Under the pieces are notes generated by a model, which saw nothing but the letters and a program-made list of their open reading frames with translations, searched no databases and was not told the origin of the DNA. A stretch of DNA of 64,000 nucleotides, taken from assembly GCF_016803135.1 (NCBI RefSeq), contig NZ_JAEVFE010000001.1, positions 310,001-374,000 on the forward strand. The letters run 5' to 3'. A program made the position numbers and the translations under genes. Positions 16,556 to 25,362 of this stretch are shown here, piece by piece (positions within the stretch are counted from its first letter, which is position 1; each line of letters begins with the position of its first letter). Source of the DNA: Altererythrobacter sp. C41. Its GTDB lineage: Bacteria > Pseudomonadota > Alphaproteobacteria > Sphingomonadales > Sphingomonadaceae.

Positions 16556-16963
16556 ATGCACTGGATTTCGCTTCCGCTCGCCGCGGTGGCACTTGCCGGT
16601 CCGATGCCGGACGGAGCTGCCGACATAGGCGCGAAGAACGCGTTGCCGGCCGAGTATCTGCCCTGCGAGGGCACCGTGCCGGTCTTCAATCCGGAAGGCT
16701 GCCCACCAGCGCGGCTGACCGTGGACGAGCCCGAGAAGCCTGCCGAAGCCGCATGTCGTGATCGGATCGCGCTCGTGCGGGAGGAGAACGACCAACCACA
16801 ACTGGACAGGCGTCCCGCGAGTCCCGAGCGCCCCTACCTGATGGCCGCGGTCGACAAGCGGATCGACGGATGCCCGGTAATGCAGATGCTTCACGACGCC
16901 GACGACCTGCGGCCGCTGTCCGCCCCGCCCCACGGCTCCGCGAAGATCTACCCCGGGGGCTAG
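16556..16963 (+). CDS. small secreted hypothetical protein with conserved-looking cysteines
   Basis: Not a family I recognise. The protein is 135 residues with a short signal peptide (ISLPLAAVALAG) and a strong ribosome-binding site, GGAGGAGAGG, before ATG 16556. The mature part has cysteines in LPCEG, EGCPP, AACRD and DGCPV, four in about 80 residues, which would suit two disulfides in the periplasm. The rest is polar and proline-rich with no repeats. It follows the DUF817 gene by 43 bases and may belong to that transcript. Its stop shares a CTAG with the convergent MFS gene. Confidence 0.7.
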   Translation: MHWISLPLAAVALAGPMPDGAADIGAKNALPAEYLPCEGTVPVFNPEGCPPARLTVDEPEKPAEAACRDRIALVREENDQPQLDRRPASPERPYLMAAVDKRIDGCPVMQMLHDADDLRPLSAPPHGSAKIYPGG

Positions 16964-18252
16964 CCCTTCCGGTCGAGCTCCTCGTCGAGCCGCAGACTGC
17001 AGCGCCAGAAGAAGAACGCAGGAACCAGCCCGAGGACGGCCGCGCCGTAGAGAACGTAGCGTACGCTTTCCTCGCCATAGGCAGGTTGCAGCAGGTCCGA
17101 CAGCATGCCGAAGAACAGCGGGCCGAGTCCCAGCCCGATCAGGTTCTGGAAGAACAGCACCATCGCCGCCGCGATCGCCCGCGTGCGCAGCGGCACGAGG
17201 CCCTGCGCGGCCGAATAGGTCGGTCCGTAGTAAAGCGAATTGCAGACCGTCGGCACGATCAACAACAGGAGCGCCACGAACCAGTTCGTCGACTGGTAGG
17301 CGAGGAATGCGAACGGCACCGCCACGGCCATCCCGATAGCGGGCGCGGTCAGCACATGGCGCCGGCTCTTCGACCCGAACCGGTCGGCCAGATAGCCGCC
17401 GAACCAGGTCCCGAAGATGCCGGCCGCGCCGTTGACGACGCCGAACCAGAACCCGACCTCGCCCGGCGAAAGCTCGTGCGTGCGCTGGAAGAAGATCGTC
17501 GTCCAGGTCACTTTGCCATAGGCAAGAAAGGCCGCGGTGGAGCTTGCCGCAAGCAGGAGGACGAAGGCGCGCGAGCCCATCACGGTGCGCACTGCCGCCC
17601 AGATCGACATCCCCGCATCGCTCGCCGCCAGCGTCTGCGCCGCCTCGGTCAGATGCCGCCGCGGCTCACGCAGCGCGAAGTGGACCAGCAGCGCGAGAAG
17701 GACGCCGGGCAAACCGACGATCAGGAATGCCGTGCGCCATCCGACCCAGTCGGCGAGGAAGCCGCCGATCATCATGCCCAGCAGCGTGCCGATCGGAATG
17801 CCGAGGGCGTAGAACGCCAGCGCCGAACTGCGCCGCTCCGGCGGCACGATATCGCTGATCAGCGAATGCGCCGGCGGCGTACAGCCGGCCTCGCCCACAC
17901 CCACGCCGATCCGTGCGAGCAGGAGTTGCACGAAGTTGTTCGCCATGCCGCACAGCGCGGTCATCGCGGACCAGGTAGCAAGCGCCACCGCGATCAGCCG
18001 CGGGCGATTGGTCGTCGGCCGGTCGGCGTAGCGCGCGATCGGCAGGCCGAGCGCGGTGTAGAACAGCGCGAAGGCCAGACCGGTCATCAACCCGATCTGC
18101 GTATCGCTGAGGTTCAGATCGATCGCGATCGGCTCGGCCAGAATGTTGACGATCTGCCGGTCGATGAAATTGAAAATGTAGACGATCAGCAGAATCCAGA
18201 GCGTCGCACGCACCGAGCGCGACGTGTTTTCGGCCTGTGCCGCTGATGCCAT
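16960..18252 (-). CDS. MFS transporter, spinster-like
   Basis: Twelve-helix major facilitator of 430 residues. The N-terminal sequence YIFNFIDRQIVNILAEPI and GLAFALFYTALGLPIARYADR match the spinster-like clade common in sphingomonads. GVGVGEAGCTPPAHSLISD is the diagnostic motif C-like segment in helix 5. Substrates of these transporters are mostly unknown; in animals they move sphingolipid-related molecules. No substrate-linked genes flank it. Confidence 0.9.
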   Translation of the reverse strand: MASAAQAENTSRSVRATLWILLIVYIFNFIDRQIVNILAEPIAIDLNLSDTQIGLMTGLAFALFYTALGLPIARYADRPTTNRPRLIAVALATWSAMTALCGMANNFVQLLLARIGVGVGEAGCTPPAHSLISDIVPPERRSSALAFYALGIPIGTLLGMMIGGFLADWVGWRTAFLIVGLPGVLLALLVHFALREPRRHLTEAAQTLAASDAGMSIWAAVRTVMGSRAFVLLLAASSTAAFLAYGKVTWTTIFFQRTHELSPGEVGFWFGVVNGAAGIFGTWFGGYLADRFGSKSRRHVLTAPAIGMAVAVPFAFLAYQSTNWFVALLLLIVPTVCNSLYYGPTYSAAQGLVPLRTRAIAAAMVLFFQNLIGLGLGPLFFGMLSDLLQPAYGEESVRYVLYGAAVLGLVPAFFFWRCSLRLDEELDRKG

Positions 18253-21866: not shown

Positions 21867-23171
21867 ATGAGCCCGCCGGTGAGCCAGCCACGGTCCCCCT
21901 TCCGCATCGCCAACTTCCGCGCCTACTGGGTCTCGCGCCTGACGATGACGCTGGCGCAGTACGCGATGATGCTCATCATCGGGTGGCAGACCTACAACAT
22001 CGCGCGCGACGGCGGGATGAGCGTCGCCGGCGCCTCGGGCCAGCTTGCGCTGATCGGGCTGCTGCAGTTCGTCCCGCTGTTCCTGCTGACGCCGTTTTCC
22101 GGTCTGGCGGCGGACCGGTTCGACAGGCGCAATGTCGCGCGGCTGACGATCGTTCTCCAGCTTGCCTGCGCCGCAACCCTGGCGCTGCTCACGTGGCACG
22201 AGGCGATCGAGCTGCACTGGCTGTTCTCGGTCGCCGTCGTGCTCGGCGTCGTGCGCGCCTTCAACGGCCCCGCGCTTTCGGCACTCGCGCCGAACCTCGT
22301 GCCCAAGGCCATCCTGCCCAACGCGATCGCGCTGAGCTCGATCGCGTGGCAGTCGGGGATGATCGTCGGGCCCGCGATCGGCGGCTATTTCTACGCCATC
22401 GTTCCGGCCCTTCCCTACGCCGTCGCTGCGGGTCTGCTCACGATCTCGATCATCGCGCTCAGCACCATCGGCAAAGTGCCGCAGCCGCCGATCCCGGGCG
22501 CCACGCGTCCGATCGGGCAGATGATCGACGGGCTGCACTATGTCGTGCGCAACAAGATGGTGCTGGGCGCCATCACGCTCGACCTGTTCGCGGTGTTTCT
22601 CGCCGGCGCGACCGCGCTCTTCCCGGTCTATGCGCGCGACATCCTGAAGGTCGGCGAGACCGGGCTGGCGCAGCTCGCCATGGCGCCGGCCACCGGTGCC
22701 GCGCTCACCGCGCTGTGGTTCTCGTTCCGCCCGCTCAAGAACAATGTCGGGCCCAAGATGCTCGTGTCGGTTGCCGTGTTCGGTTTCGCCACCGTGATCT
22801 TCGGCATTTCCACGTGGATGCCGCTCAGCCTCGCGATGCTGTTCATCGTCGGCGCGGCGGACATGTTCTCGGTCTACATCCGCCAGTCGCTGATCCAGCT
22901 TCACACGCCCGACGACAAGCGCGGGCGCGTATCGTCGGTCTCGCTGCTGACGATCTCGGCCTCCAACGAATTCGGCGACTTCTTCTCCGGCACGCTCGCG
23001 TGGCTGATCGGCCCGGTGCTCGCCGTGGTGAGCGGCGGGATCGGCGCTATCGTCACCGTTGCGCTGTGGGCGAAGATTTTCCCCGTCCTGCGCACCACCC
23101 GGACCTTTGACCCGCCGGAAGAATTGGACGATCATACACCGGAAGAAAAGTTGCAGGAGCACGTCCCATGA
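21867..23171 (+). CDS. MFS transporter, EntS/MFS_3-like
   Basis: Twelve-helix transporter of about 434 residues. The N-terminal [23 protein letters not shown] and the motif-A-like loop [17 protein letters not shown] place it with the EntS-like MFS_3 exporters. It overlaps cysK by four bases (ATGA), so the two are co-translated. Such transporters next to cysteine synthase genes recur in sphingomonads, and a link to thiol or amino-acid export is plausible. ATG 21867 is preferred over a TTG at 21843. Confidence 0.85.
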
Positions 23172-24088
23172 AAGCTGCCAGCGTCCTCGAAACGATCGGC
23201 CGCACGCCGCACATCCGCCTGGCGCGCATGTTCCCCGACCACGAAGTCTGGGTGAAGAGCGAGCGGGCCAATCCCGGCGGCTCGATCAAGGACCGCATCG
23301 CGCTCGCCATGGTCGAAGATGCGGAGAAGTCGGGCGCGCTCAAGCCCGGCGGCACGATCATCGAACCGACCAGCGGCAACACCGGCATCGGCCTCGCCAT
23401 GGTCGCCGCGGTAAAGGGCTACAAGCTCATCCTCGTCATGCCGGAGAGCATGAGCATCGAGCGCCGCCGCCTGATGCTGGCCTATGGCGCGAAGTTCGAT
23501 CTCACCCCCAAGGAAAAGGGCATGAAAGGCGCGATCGAGCGCGCCGCCGAACTGGCCCAGCAGACCGAGGGGGGATGGATTCCGGCGCAGTTCGACAACG
23601 AGGCCAACTGGAAGGTTCATTTCGAAACGACGGCGAAGGAGATCTACGAGGATTTCCGCGATACGCCGATCGACGTCCTCATCACCGGCGTGGGCACAGG
23701 CGGCCATCTGACCGGCTGTGCCGAGGAGCTGAAGAGCCACTGGAGCGGGATGAAGGCCTATGCGGTCGAGCCCGATCTCTCGCCCGTGATCGGCGGCGGC
23801 CAGCCCGGCCCGCATCCGATCCAGGGCCTGGGCGCGGGCTTCATTCCCGGCAACCTCCACACCCAGTCGATCGACGGGGCGATCGAGGTTTCGGGCGACG
23901 ATGCCAAGGAAATGGCCCGCCGCTGCGCGCGTGAGGAAGGGCTGCTGGTCGGCATCTCCAGCGGCGCCACCCTGGCGGCGATCGCGCAGAAGCTGCCCGA
24001 GCTGGACGCGGGCGCTCGCATTCTCGGCTTCAACTACGACACTGGCGAGCGTTACCTCTCGGTGCCCGACTTCCTGCCGGAGCAGTAA
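23168..24088 (+). CDS. cysK: cysteine synthase A (O-acetylserine sulfhydrylase)
   Basis: PLP enzyme that makes cysteine from O-acetylserine and sulfide. The protein is 306 residues. The PLP lysine is K41 in [11 protein letters not shown]. The substrate loop [12 protein letters not shown] and the phosphate-binding [11 protein letters not shown] follow. The C-terminal GISSGAT motif is complete. It sits in a two-gene unit with the MFS transporter and is followed by a good intrinsic terminator. Confidence 0.95.
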
Positions 24089-24136: not shown

Positions 24137-24210
24137 CATCTAGCGTAGCGCTTGAGGAACGTGCGGTGCTCCCACGAGCTCGGCGCGAACGGGTTTCGGG
24201 AGGTCGCTGA

Positions 24211-25362
24211 ATGCATGTCAGGCGTCGCACTGTACTGATCGGAGGCGCCGCCACCCTCCTCGCCGGGTGCACTGATGCGGGAACGCGGATTGCATCGGCA
24301 TCTGCTGGCCCGCGTATCGCGCCGCTTCGTCTCGATCCCGGCGAGGTGATGAAGATCACCGTGTGCCTGCGCCCGTTCCGTCCGTCAGGGCCCCGCCTCG
24401 AAGCCGAGCGGCTCGGCGAAAAGACCGTGATCCATAACTACGGCCATGGCGGCGCAGGGTGGTCGCTCGGATGGGGCTGTGCCGCAGAGGCGGCGGCGCT
24501 CGCCCGGTCCGGTGGTGCGAGCGAGTTCGCGGTGATCGGCGCGGGCGTTATCGGGCTCACGACCGCCCTGCGTCTGATCGAAACCGGCGCGAAGGTGGCG
24601 ATCTACGCCGAGGAGTTCCCCGCCGAAACCCGCTCGGCGCGTGCCACCGGAGTATGGTCCCCGAGCAGCCGAATCGCACTAGCCGGCGCTGCGCCGGTCG
24701 GCTTTGCGGACCGCTGGGAAGGCTGGGCGCGCGCCTCCTACGCCGCACACCTGCGGATGATCGGCCTCCTTGGGGATCCGGTCGAGTTCCTCCCGCAGTA
24801 CGAAGTCAGCGGAGGCGCGCCGGAGACCGAGGCGCCCCCCGCGGCGCACGATTTCCTCCACATCCACCGCCGGGTGCGCGACCTGCAGCCACCCTGGCGC
24901 CAAATGGCCCTGGAAGAGAACCCCTTCGCGCCGCGCGAAACCGCAACCGGCAACGGAATGGTGTTCAACGTCGCCAGCTACGCGGACCGGCTCGCACGGC
25001 TCTTCATGCTGCGCGGCGGACGGATGATCCGCCGCACCTTTCCCGACCGCGCTGCAGCACTCGCATTGCCGGAACCGGTAATAGTGAACTGCATGGGTTA
25101 CGGCGCAAAGGCGATCTGGGGCGATGCCGACATGGTGCCGGTTCGCGGCCAGATCGGATGGCTGATCCCGCAGCCGGAGGCGCGCTACTCGCTCTACTAC
25201 GGCGGGGTTAACGCGATCTCGCGGCGCGATGGCGTCGTGATCCAGTATTACGGACCGAACGAGGACTTCGGCTACGGCGATGCGAACGAAACGGTTGACC
25301 CTGCGGAAACCGAACGTGCGCTCGCGATCCTGCGGCAGGCTTACGTGACACCGGCGGAATAG
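24211..25362 (+). CDS. Tat-type FAD oxidoreductase, DAAO-like with circularly permuted motif order
   Basis: Flavoprotein of 383 residues. It opens with a twin-arginine leader and lipobox (RRRTVLIGGAATLLAGC, C20), so a folded, exported and probably lipid-anchored enzyme is expected. The sequence clearly belongs with D-amino-acid oxidases, but in the wrong order. LRPFRP (53-58) and VIHNYGHGGAGWSLGWG (73-89), which form the C-terminal end of normal DAAOs, come first. The FAD-binding VIGAGVIGLTTALRL (108-122), normally residue 1 onward, comes after them. The usual mid-protein segments VNCMGYGAKAIWGD and VRGQIGWLIP (about 292-320) then follow. The protein ends at AETERALAILRQAYV, just where a normal DAAO would enter its RPxRP motif. 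Active-site equivalents look present: R54 (pig R283) and Y326/Y330 (pig Y224/Y228). A dienelactone hydrolase gene starts five bases later. Confidence 0.85.
   Translation: MHVRRRTVLIGGAATLLAGCTDAGTRIASASAGPRIAPLRLDPGEVMKITVCLRPFRPSGPRLEAERLGEKTVIHNYGHGGAGWSLGWGCAAEAAALARSGGASEFAVIGAGVIGLTTALRLIETGAKVAIYAEEFPAETRSARATGVWSPSSRIALAGAAPVGFADRWEGWARASYAAHLRMIGLLGDPVEFLPQYEVSGGAPETEAPPAAHDFLHIHRRVRDLQPPWRQMALEENPFAPRETATGNGMVFNVASYADRLARLFMLRGGRMIRRTFPDRAAALALPEPVIVNCMGYGAKAIWGDADMVPVRGQIGWLIPQPEARYSLYYGGVNAISRRDGVVIQYYGPNEDFGYGDANETVDPAETERALAILRQAYVTPAE

Follow-up and report, generated by a model that had tools for sequence, protein, structure and literature searches.

D-Amino-acid oxidase (DAAO) is a textbook flavoenzyme, in which the FAD loop comes first in the chain and the RPxRP and HNYGHGG motifs come last. 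How is a protein to be understood, then, that shows whole-domain homology to the DAAO/D-aspartate oxidase family with this linear order reversed? Such a protein is encoded in a 64,000-nucleotide stretch of DNA from Altererythrobacter sp. C41 (contig NZ_JAEVFE010000001.1, positions 310,001 to 374,000; hereafter the window; table 1). A first-pass annotation had read it as a circular permutation without duplication, placing RPFRP at residues 54-58, VIHNYGHGGAGWSLGWG at 73-89 and VIGAGVIGLTTALRL at 108-122, and all three motifs are indeed found there. Among the best 25 of 50 NCBIfam rows, no specific family for the protein was found. The reading we favour, and hold with good confidence, is that the protein belongs to a natural, circularly permuted branch of the DAAO/D-aspartate oxidases; it would be exported, bind an amino-acid-type substrate through Arg54 and probably carry its FAD on Cys52.

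Table 1. The permuted gene, its parts and its two neighbours, in window positions.
Feature	Position	Strand	Basis or remark
PLP-dependent enzyme, PF00291, cysteine-synthase-like	23168..24088	+	122 nt upstream of the permuted gene; adjacency only
GGGAGG, Shine-Dalgarno-like	24198..24203	+	7 nt 5' of the ATG; by eye
ORF of the window protein	24211-25362	+	383 aa, ATG start
Leader, residues 1-20: twin-arginine RRRTVLI and lipobox LAGC (Cys20, 24268-24270)	24211..24270	+	sequence; kept in relatives
Moved block, residues 41-99: ordinary DAAO C-terminal segment (RPxRP strand, HNYGHGG strand, last helix)	24331..24507	+	sequence searches; strands and helix from the predicted model
Cys52	24364..24366	+	Cys in 101/101 clade-A rows; opposite a Cys conserved in sarcosine-oxidase-like proteins
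Arg54, DAAO Arg283 equivalent	24370..24372	+	alignment; substrate-carboxylate role presumed
VIHNYGHGGAGWSLGWG motif, residues 73-89	24427..24477	+	sequence and homology searches
Junction, residues 100-104: old C-terminal helix to first Rossmann strand	24508..24522	+	rotation scan, motif spacing
Core, residues 105-377: N-terminal four fifths of ordinary DAAO (FAD loop, substrate domain)	24523..25341	+	homology searches
FAD-binding VIGAGVIGLTTALRL, residues 108-122	24532..24576	+	sequence
Asn334, at the DAAO Tyr228 position (conserved active-site Tyr)	25210..25212	+	alignment; DAAO numbering presumed
Dienelactone-hydrolase-family gene, PF01738	25368..26066	+	5 nt downstream of the permuted gene

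When the window protein is compared with PDB sequences by phmmer, residues 45-103 align with the C termini of DAAO and D-aspartate oxidase (308-365 of 9vpf; residues 52-97 fall on 281-329 of 2du8), and the Rossmann part, from about residues 104-106 onward, aligns with their N termini; a 25-member profile returns the same two swapped blocks, with E down to 5.1e-35. The Pfam DAO family (PF01266) also matches the gene twice in swapped order, with a core match of 66.6 bits (profile 2-299, genome coordinates 334526-335356) and an upstream match (profile 247-353, genome coordinates 334184-334501) that at 27.5 bits lies just below the cut-off of 27.9, begins 27 bases before the ATG and crosses one stop there. 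An ordinary-order HMM, built from seven sequences (six actinobacterial proteins and human D-aspartate oxidase), matches residues 41-99 at profile positions 257-315 and residues 105-315 at positions 4-192, with E values of 3.1e-17 and 1.9e-24, respectively.

The same HMM matches both blocks in each of 127 unique permuted proteins, a set selected by a motif pattern that itself requires the permuted order. Three groups of rows are distinguished: (i) clade A, the 101 rows with a GW motif after YGHGG, the window protein included; (ii) clade C, five rows (L065, L066, L172, L177 and L178) that form one clade in both trees described below; and (iii) group B, the remaining 21 permuted rows, which belong to the window's family and to a second family in the same class; this group is only a label, since L061 and L063 lie nearer clade A in the larger tree. 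The distance from YGHGG to GxGxxG is 34 residues in 115 of the 127 proteins (range 33-39). None of the 127 has a second YGHGG after the Rossmann motif, and duplication is thereby ruled out.

The position of the junction emerges from a scan in which the native-order profile of the 101 clade-A proteins was rotated at 27 cut points and compared each time with a nine-row ordinary profile: the score, 221.6 without rotation, peaks at 343.6 (residue 104) and 343.3 (residue 100), drops on either side, and corresponds to an E value of 2.2e-48 for the rotated profile against the ordinary rows. With hhalign, rotated clade A and the nine ordinary rows align with probability 100 and E 2e-50. Rotation of the single window sequence brings a small gain in phmmer (best E from 6.9e-15 to 9.3e-16), the match to 6rkf becoming continuous and some chains, e.g. 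9vpf, scoring slightly worse. The swapped blocks, the rotation peak at residues 100-104 and the single YGHGG bear out the proposal of a permutation without duplication, and the window protein is thus confirmed, on the strength of these sequence comparisons, as a real natural circular permutation of the DAAO family.

An AlphaFold model computed with 25 alignment rows (pLDDT 89.5, pTM 0.86; residues 1-31 mostly unsure) has DAAO and D-aspartate oxidase as its top solved matches in Foldseek, the first with E 8e-13. The TM scores by target for these rows, 0.51-0.65, come from a sequential aligner with which both blocks cannot match together, and Foldseek therefore speaks neither for nor against the placement of the moved block; residues 50-95 would pack at the DAAO C-terminal position.

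A swapped order might also come from a mistake in sequencing or assembly, or from two gene fragments that fused in this strain alone; the probability of this is negligible. All seven genomes of the genus carry the permuted gene, the other six at 73-92% identity and in the same order, and the ordinary-order HMM classes as permuted every one of 80 loci (the best 80 of 474 confirmed stretches) from a scan of named genomes, made with a permuted query, which come from Alphaproteobacteria, Acidobacteriota and Verrucomicrobiota; the linker spacing, moreover, is almost constant among members. Since the order is kept across genus, family and named loci, error and local fusion are ruled out, and the conservation among homologues that the first-pass annotation proposed to look for is found.

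Among 199 genomes of the family, 44 match at an E value no worse than 1e-20; in each of these the match is permuted and unbroken, starting no later than query residue 34 and ending no earlier than 344. A profile search at 1e-15 finds the gene in 24 of 196 genomes in the order and in 20 of 398 in the phylum. Permuted members also occur in plasmid records, in Nonomuraea (Actinomycetota), Rhizobium and Bradyrhizobium. The outcome is not merely the product of a permuted query, because loci found with other queries are permuted as well by the ordinary-order HMM: 15 of 15 with a core-only query (in 15 of 299 genomes) and seven of seven with an ordinary-order query (in seven of 299, all among those 15), few candidates having been scored per genome and the ordinary-order query having missed the window gene itself. 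Across 191 collected loci, the ordinary-order HMM assigns 172 to the permuted form (a redundant set) and eight to the full-length ordinary form; three match with an N-terminal part only (L008 and L162, which are other flavoproteins, and L173, which is broken), and eight, all of them other PF01266 proteins of the window's genome, do not match. Pseudomonadota also contain DAAO-like proteins of ordinary order (Vibrio L190 and L191; Burkholderia plasmid matches). With more than 100 related proteins (127 unique) of several bacterial groups in the same rearranged order, the permuted form of DAAO is, by sequence, widespread.

Some of these records deserve mention for their own sake. The features annotated beneath the plasmid matches, where present, are named only ‘FAD-dependent oxidoreductase’. 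In plasmid pOM4 of Mesorhizobium onobrychidis (L173, 2735-3798) the annotation divides a clade-C-like permuted gene, near the Rossmann motif, into two CDSs that overlap in different frames, and the gene looks like a broken copy; in Parerythrobacter lacustris (L011 and L071, by length the same contig) an internal stop divides the permuted gene into two ORFs, apparently a decayed copy. The Nonomuraea record (L172, NZ_LT559118.1), filed as a plasmid, measures 11.85 Mb and is probably a chromosome.

In a tree of rotated sequences, a single branch (100/99) separates nine ordinary from 34 permuted proteins, and a smaller tree gives the same separation, with the same support, for seven ordinary and 24 permuted rows. 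To our knowledge, the wider DAO superfamily has the ordinary order, and the permuted order is therefore taken as derived. One origin of the permuted proteins is likely; the trees being midpoint-rooted and the ordinary proteins few (nine), the single branch is consistent with one origin and permits it without proving it.

What the permuted chain does with its flavin is best approached through the active site. Arg54, Arg57, Tyr77 and His79 are present in all 127 permuted and all nine ordinary rows, and the HNYGHGG motif is nearly invariant. The identification of Arg54 with pig Arg283, made in the first-pass annotation, thus holds in every row, and Arg283 is the residue that we take to bind the substrate carboxylate. 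The companion proposal, that Tyr326 and Tyr330 correspond to pig Tyr224 and Tyr228, is ruled out by the alignment, which puts Asn334 in the column of the conserved active-site tyrosine (Tyr228 in what we presume to be the DAAO numbering), so that the window protein lacks an equivalent of this residue. The column holds Tyr in seven and Phe in two of the ordinary rows and Tyr in 26/26 of group B plus clade C; in the 101 clade-A rows it is mostly Ser (47), Asn (20), Leu (8), Gly (7) or Gln (6), and Tyr in only five. Clade A differs at further places: the GG motif is missing, position 345 is Gln in 97 rows and Met in four (Gly in all other rows), and position 52 is Cys in 101/101 (Gly in 9/9 ordinary, 21/21 group-B and four of five clade-C rows, the fifth having Ala). 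The carboxylate pocket of the window's clade being without its tyrosine, something other than an ordinary D-amino acid may be the substrate, and the absence of both the Tyr228 equivalent and the GG motif speaks, as far as alignments go, against plain D-amino-acid oxidase activity in clade A.

The cysteine at position 52 recalls monomeric sarcosine oxidase, which carries a covalent cysteinyl FAD. From 115 genomes, none with a protein above the curated TIGR01377 cut-off, 13 of 20 TIGR01377-like loci were taken, of which 11 were readable with the search pattern and nine had the C-x-Y/F motif, these nine alone being aligned. Against these nine sarcosine-oxidase-like proteins, hhalign places Cys52 of rotated clade A on their cysteine both in global mode (probability 97.7, E 6.9e-12) and in local mode (94.8, 5.2e-8), and a Gly of the ordinary DAAO rows, as of the group-B and clade-C rows, stands opposite the same cysteine. 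We assume this cysteine to be the flavin-linking one (Cys315) of monomeric sarcosine oxidase, and Cys52, lying at the flavin-linking position, therefore leads to the prediction of covalent FAD: in the window's clade, the coenzyme is probably tied to Cys52.

As for cellular location, the Tat-plus-lipobox leader proposed in the first-pass annotation is borne out as a sequence pattern, the twin-arginine and the lipobox Cys being present and conserved among relatives. An RR pair precedes the moved block in 100 of the 101 clade-A rows (the exception, L097, begins near a contig end), in 21/21 of group B and in two of the five of clade C, where the RR of L178 lies upstream of the annotated start and so is not counted; the lipobox pattern occurs in 66 of the 101 clade-A rows and in 15 of the 26 permuted rows outside clade A. 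The enzyme of the window's clade is therefore, by its predicted Tat leader, probably exported. Four of the five clade-C members are leaderless, so that export is not general across the permuted branch.

The gene neighbourhood was surveyed by clustering ORFs at 81 loci, with nearest neighbours assigned by a rough base-composition rule; the gene was not located in L131, leaving 80 loci (79 from the named-genome scan, best 80 of 474), across which no shared neighbour or operon was found. Of 132 nearest neighbours 66 same-strand ones remained after filters, to which the cytochrome c genes of L142 and L175 were added by hand, giving 68 scanned; among the 25 most frequent of 57 families, the top count is 4/68 adjacent same-strand proteins, shared by eight Pfam families that include PALP and Cytochrome_CBB3. 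A small cytochrome c gene lies directly 3' in three of the 79 located named-scan loci, i.e. L142 (Gluconacetobacter), L143 (Komagataeibacter) and L144 (an alphaproteobacterial MAG, where an amidohydrolase gene, PF07969, follows the cytochrome c), beginning 3-14 bases past the stop of the permuted gene. In Kozakia (L175), included because its annotation showed a cytochrome c, the annotated gene lies 5 bases downstream. All four cytochromes c have, by eye, a signal-peptide-like N terminus; in eight further loci a C-x-x-C-H ORF is more distant or on the opposite strand and was not scored as linked. The adjoining gene in L142, L143, L144 and L175 suggests cytochrome c as the electron acceptor there, and thus a dehydrogenase in those relatives, which says little on the window's species. 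No cytochrome c gene stands beside the window gene.

Other neighbours are recorded here as observations. In Bradyrhizobium and Rhizobium plasmids (L177 195-4522; L178 302-4528) a leaderless permuted gene is flanked by genes for a TPP enzyme and an FAD-binding oxidoreductase (in L177, from Bradyrhizobium, of berberine-bridge-like type according to Pfam), a compact set that is perhaps a small biosynthetic cluster. Hydantoinase/oxoprolinase-type genes follow on the same strand, 33-166 nt downstream, in L090 (6199-9774), L086 (1740-5303) and L129 (6185-8323). In the window itself, a 458-aa ORF at 16870-18246 has no Pfam match at E 1e-10, and may be a non-coding frame or a gene without assignment.

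In the light of these data, three alternatives concerning function and selection have to be weighed. The permuted protein might be a classical, H2O2-producing D-amino-acid oxidase that is exported by chance, as DAAO and D-aspartate oxidase are its nearest solved relatives by sequence and fold and Arg54 is retained; we consider this unlikely, since clade A lacks both the Tyr228 equivalent and the GG motif, carrying Cys52 and Gln345 where Gly would stand, and cytochrome c genes adjoin four relatives. Likewise doubtful is a substrate outside the amino acids, or an N-substituted amino or imino acid as in sarcosine-oxidase-like enzymes, the DAAO likeness being then a matter of ancestry only: the changed carboxylate pocket of clade A and the alignment of Cys52 with the conserved cysteine of sarcosine-oxidase-like proteins would fit, but the invariance of Arg54 and near invariance of HNYGHGG would not.

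An advantage to the cell has also to be considered, namely that the permutation was selected for freeing the N terminus to carry a Tat lipoprotein leader. Ordinary DAAO begins straight at a buried Rossmann strand, and RR precedes the moved block in 100/101 clade-A rows and 21/21 rows outside clades A and C; however, the leaderless permuted members in clade C indicate that permutation and export are separable, and many Rossmann flavoproteins bear Tat leaders without permutation, which makes such selection an improbable explanation. Still tentative, although somewhat better placed, is the more specific proposal that the window's clade consists of exported permuted DAAOs with FAD covalently bound to Cys52, acting as periplasmic dehydrogenases that feed cytochrome c; if true, a natural permutation would come together with changes in how the flavin is linked, where in the cell the enzyme lies and which electron acceptor, and probably which substrate, it uses.

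Set beside known systems, the window protein is closest to pig and human DAAO (1kif and 2du8) and human D-aspartate oxidase (6rkf), the family to which the top Foldseek matches of its model belong: both blocks align, and the Arg283 equivalent, HNYGHGG and GxGxxG are retained. It differs from them by the swapped segment order and the export leader, and its clade by the missing Tyr228 equivalent, by Cys for Gly before LRP and by Gln for Gly at 345. The ordinary-order actinobacterial DAAO-like proteins of plasmid records (Streptomyces L174, Tsukamurella L176, and L186-L189) resemble it in that their HMM, with human D-aspartate oxidase added, matches both permuted blocks; they themselves match the profile in one piece, from about 2 to 316, and the two ORFs read whole, L174 and L176, are without a leader. 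The sarcosine-oxidase-like proteins (TIGR01377-like, none above the curated cut-off) belong to the same superfamily and, in nine of them, have a conserved Cys opposite Cys52, but are remote (17% identical), of ordinary order and without HNYGHGG in the alignment.

Permutation is found among other flavin proteins, as described for the barrels of PutA proline dehydrogenase and MTHFR (PMC3779223) and for LucY, which was circularly permuted by engineering (PMC4408115); in these, too, a flavin-binding fold is permuted or tolerant of permutation, with folds other than that of DAAO. No prior report of a permuted DAAO was recognised in the open-access literature, which was the scope of the survey, subscription papers and preprints lying outside it; the accessible part of PMC4699246 has no word starting with ‘permut’. 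A ‘D-amino acid oxidase’, A0A060QKK3, appears in PMC12502724 among the proteins found for Asaia bogorensis; it may belong to the permuted family, in which case one member has been observed extracellularly before.

Returning to the favoured reading, that of an exported member of a naturally permuted branch, the following picture may be drawn. As the sequence shows, the part of ordinary DAAO that spans roughly residues 265 to 330 of the human enzyme lies ahead of the FAD Rossmann motif; a short linker, residues 100-104, bridges the old ends, and the new ones fall in the loop that precedes the RPxRP strand. A single ancient event would account for the permuted proteins sampled. The chain would adopt the DAAO fold and bind FAD, which in the window's clade would probably sit on Cys52 beside a carboxylate pocket without its tyrosine. 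Tat would export the folded protein, which in the window's species would be anchored as a lipoprotein. Arg54 would hold the carboxylate of the substrate, an amino acid or a similar small amine acid, and the electrons would pass to oxygen or, in some relatives at least, to the product of the adjoining small cytochrome c gene.

A natural, old and widespread permuted DAAO would show that the fold tolerates chain ends near the active-site arginine, and would give both a ready scaffold for engineering and a clean case for the origin and spread of circular permutations. The family points, moreover, to an unstudied class of exported amino-acid-type oxidoreductases.
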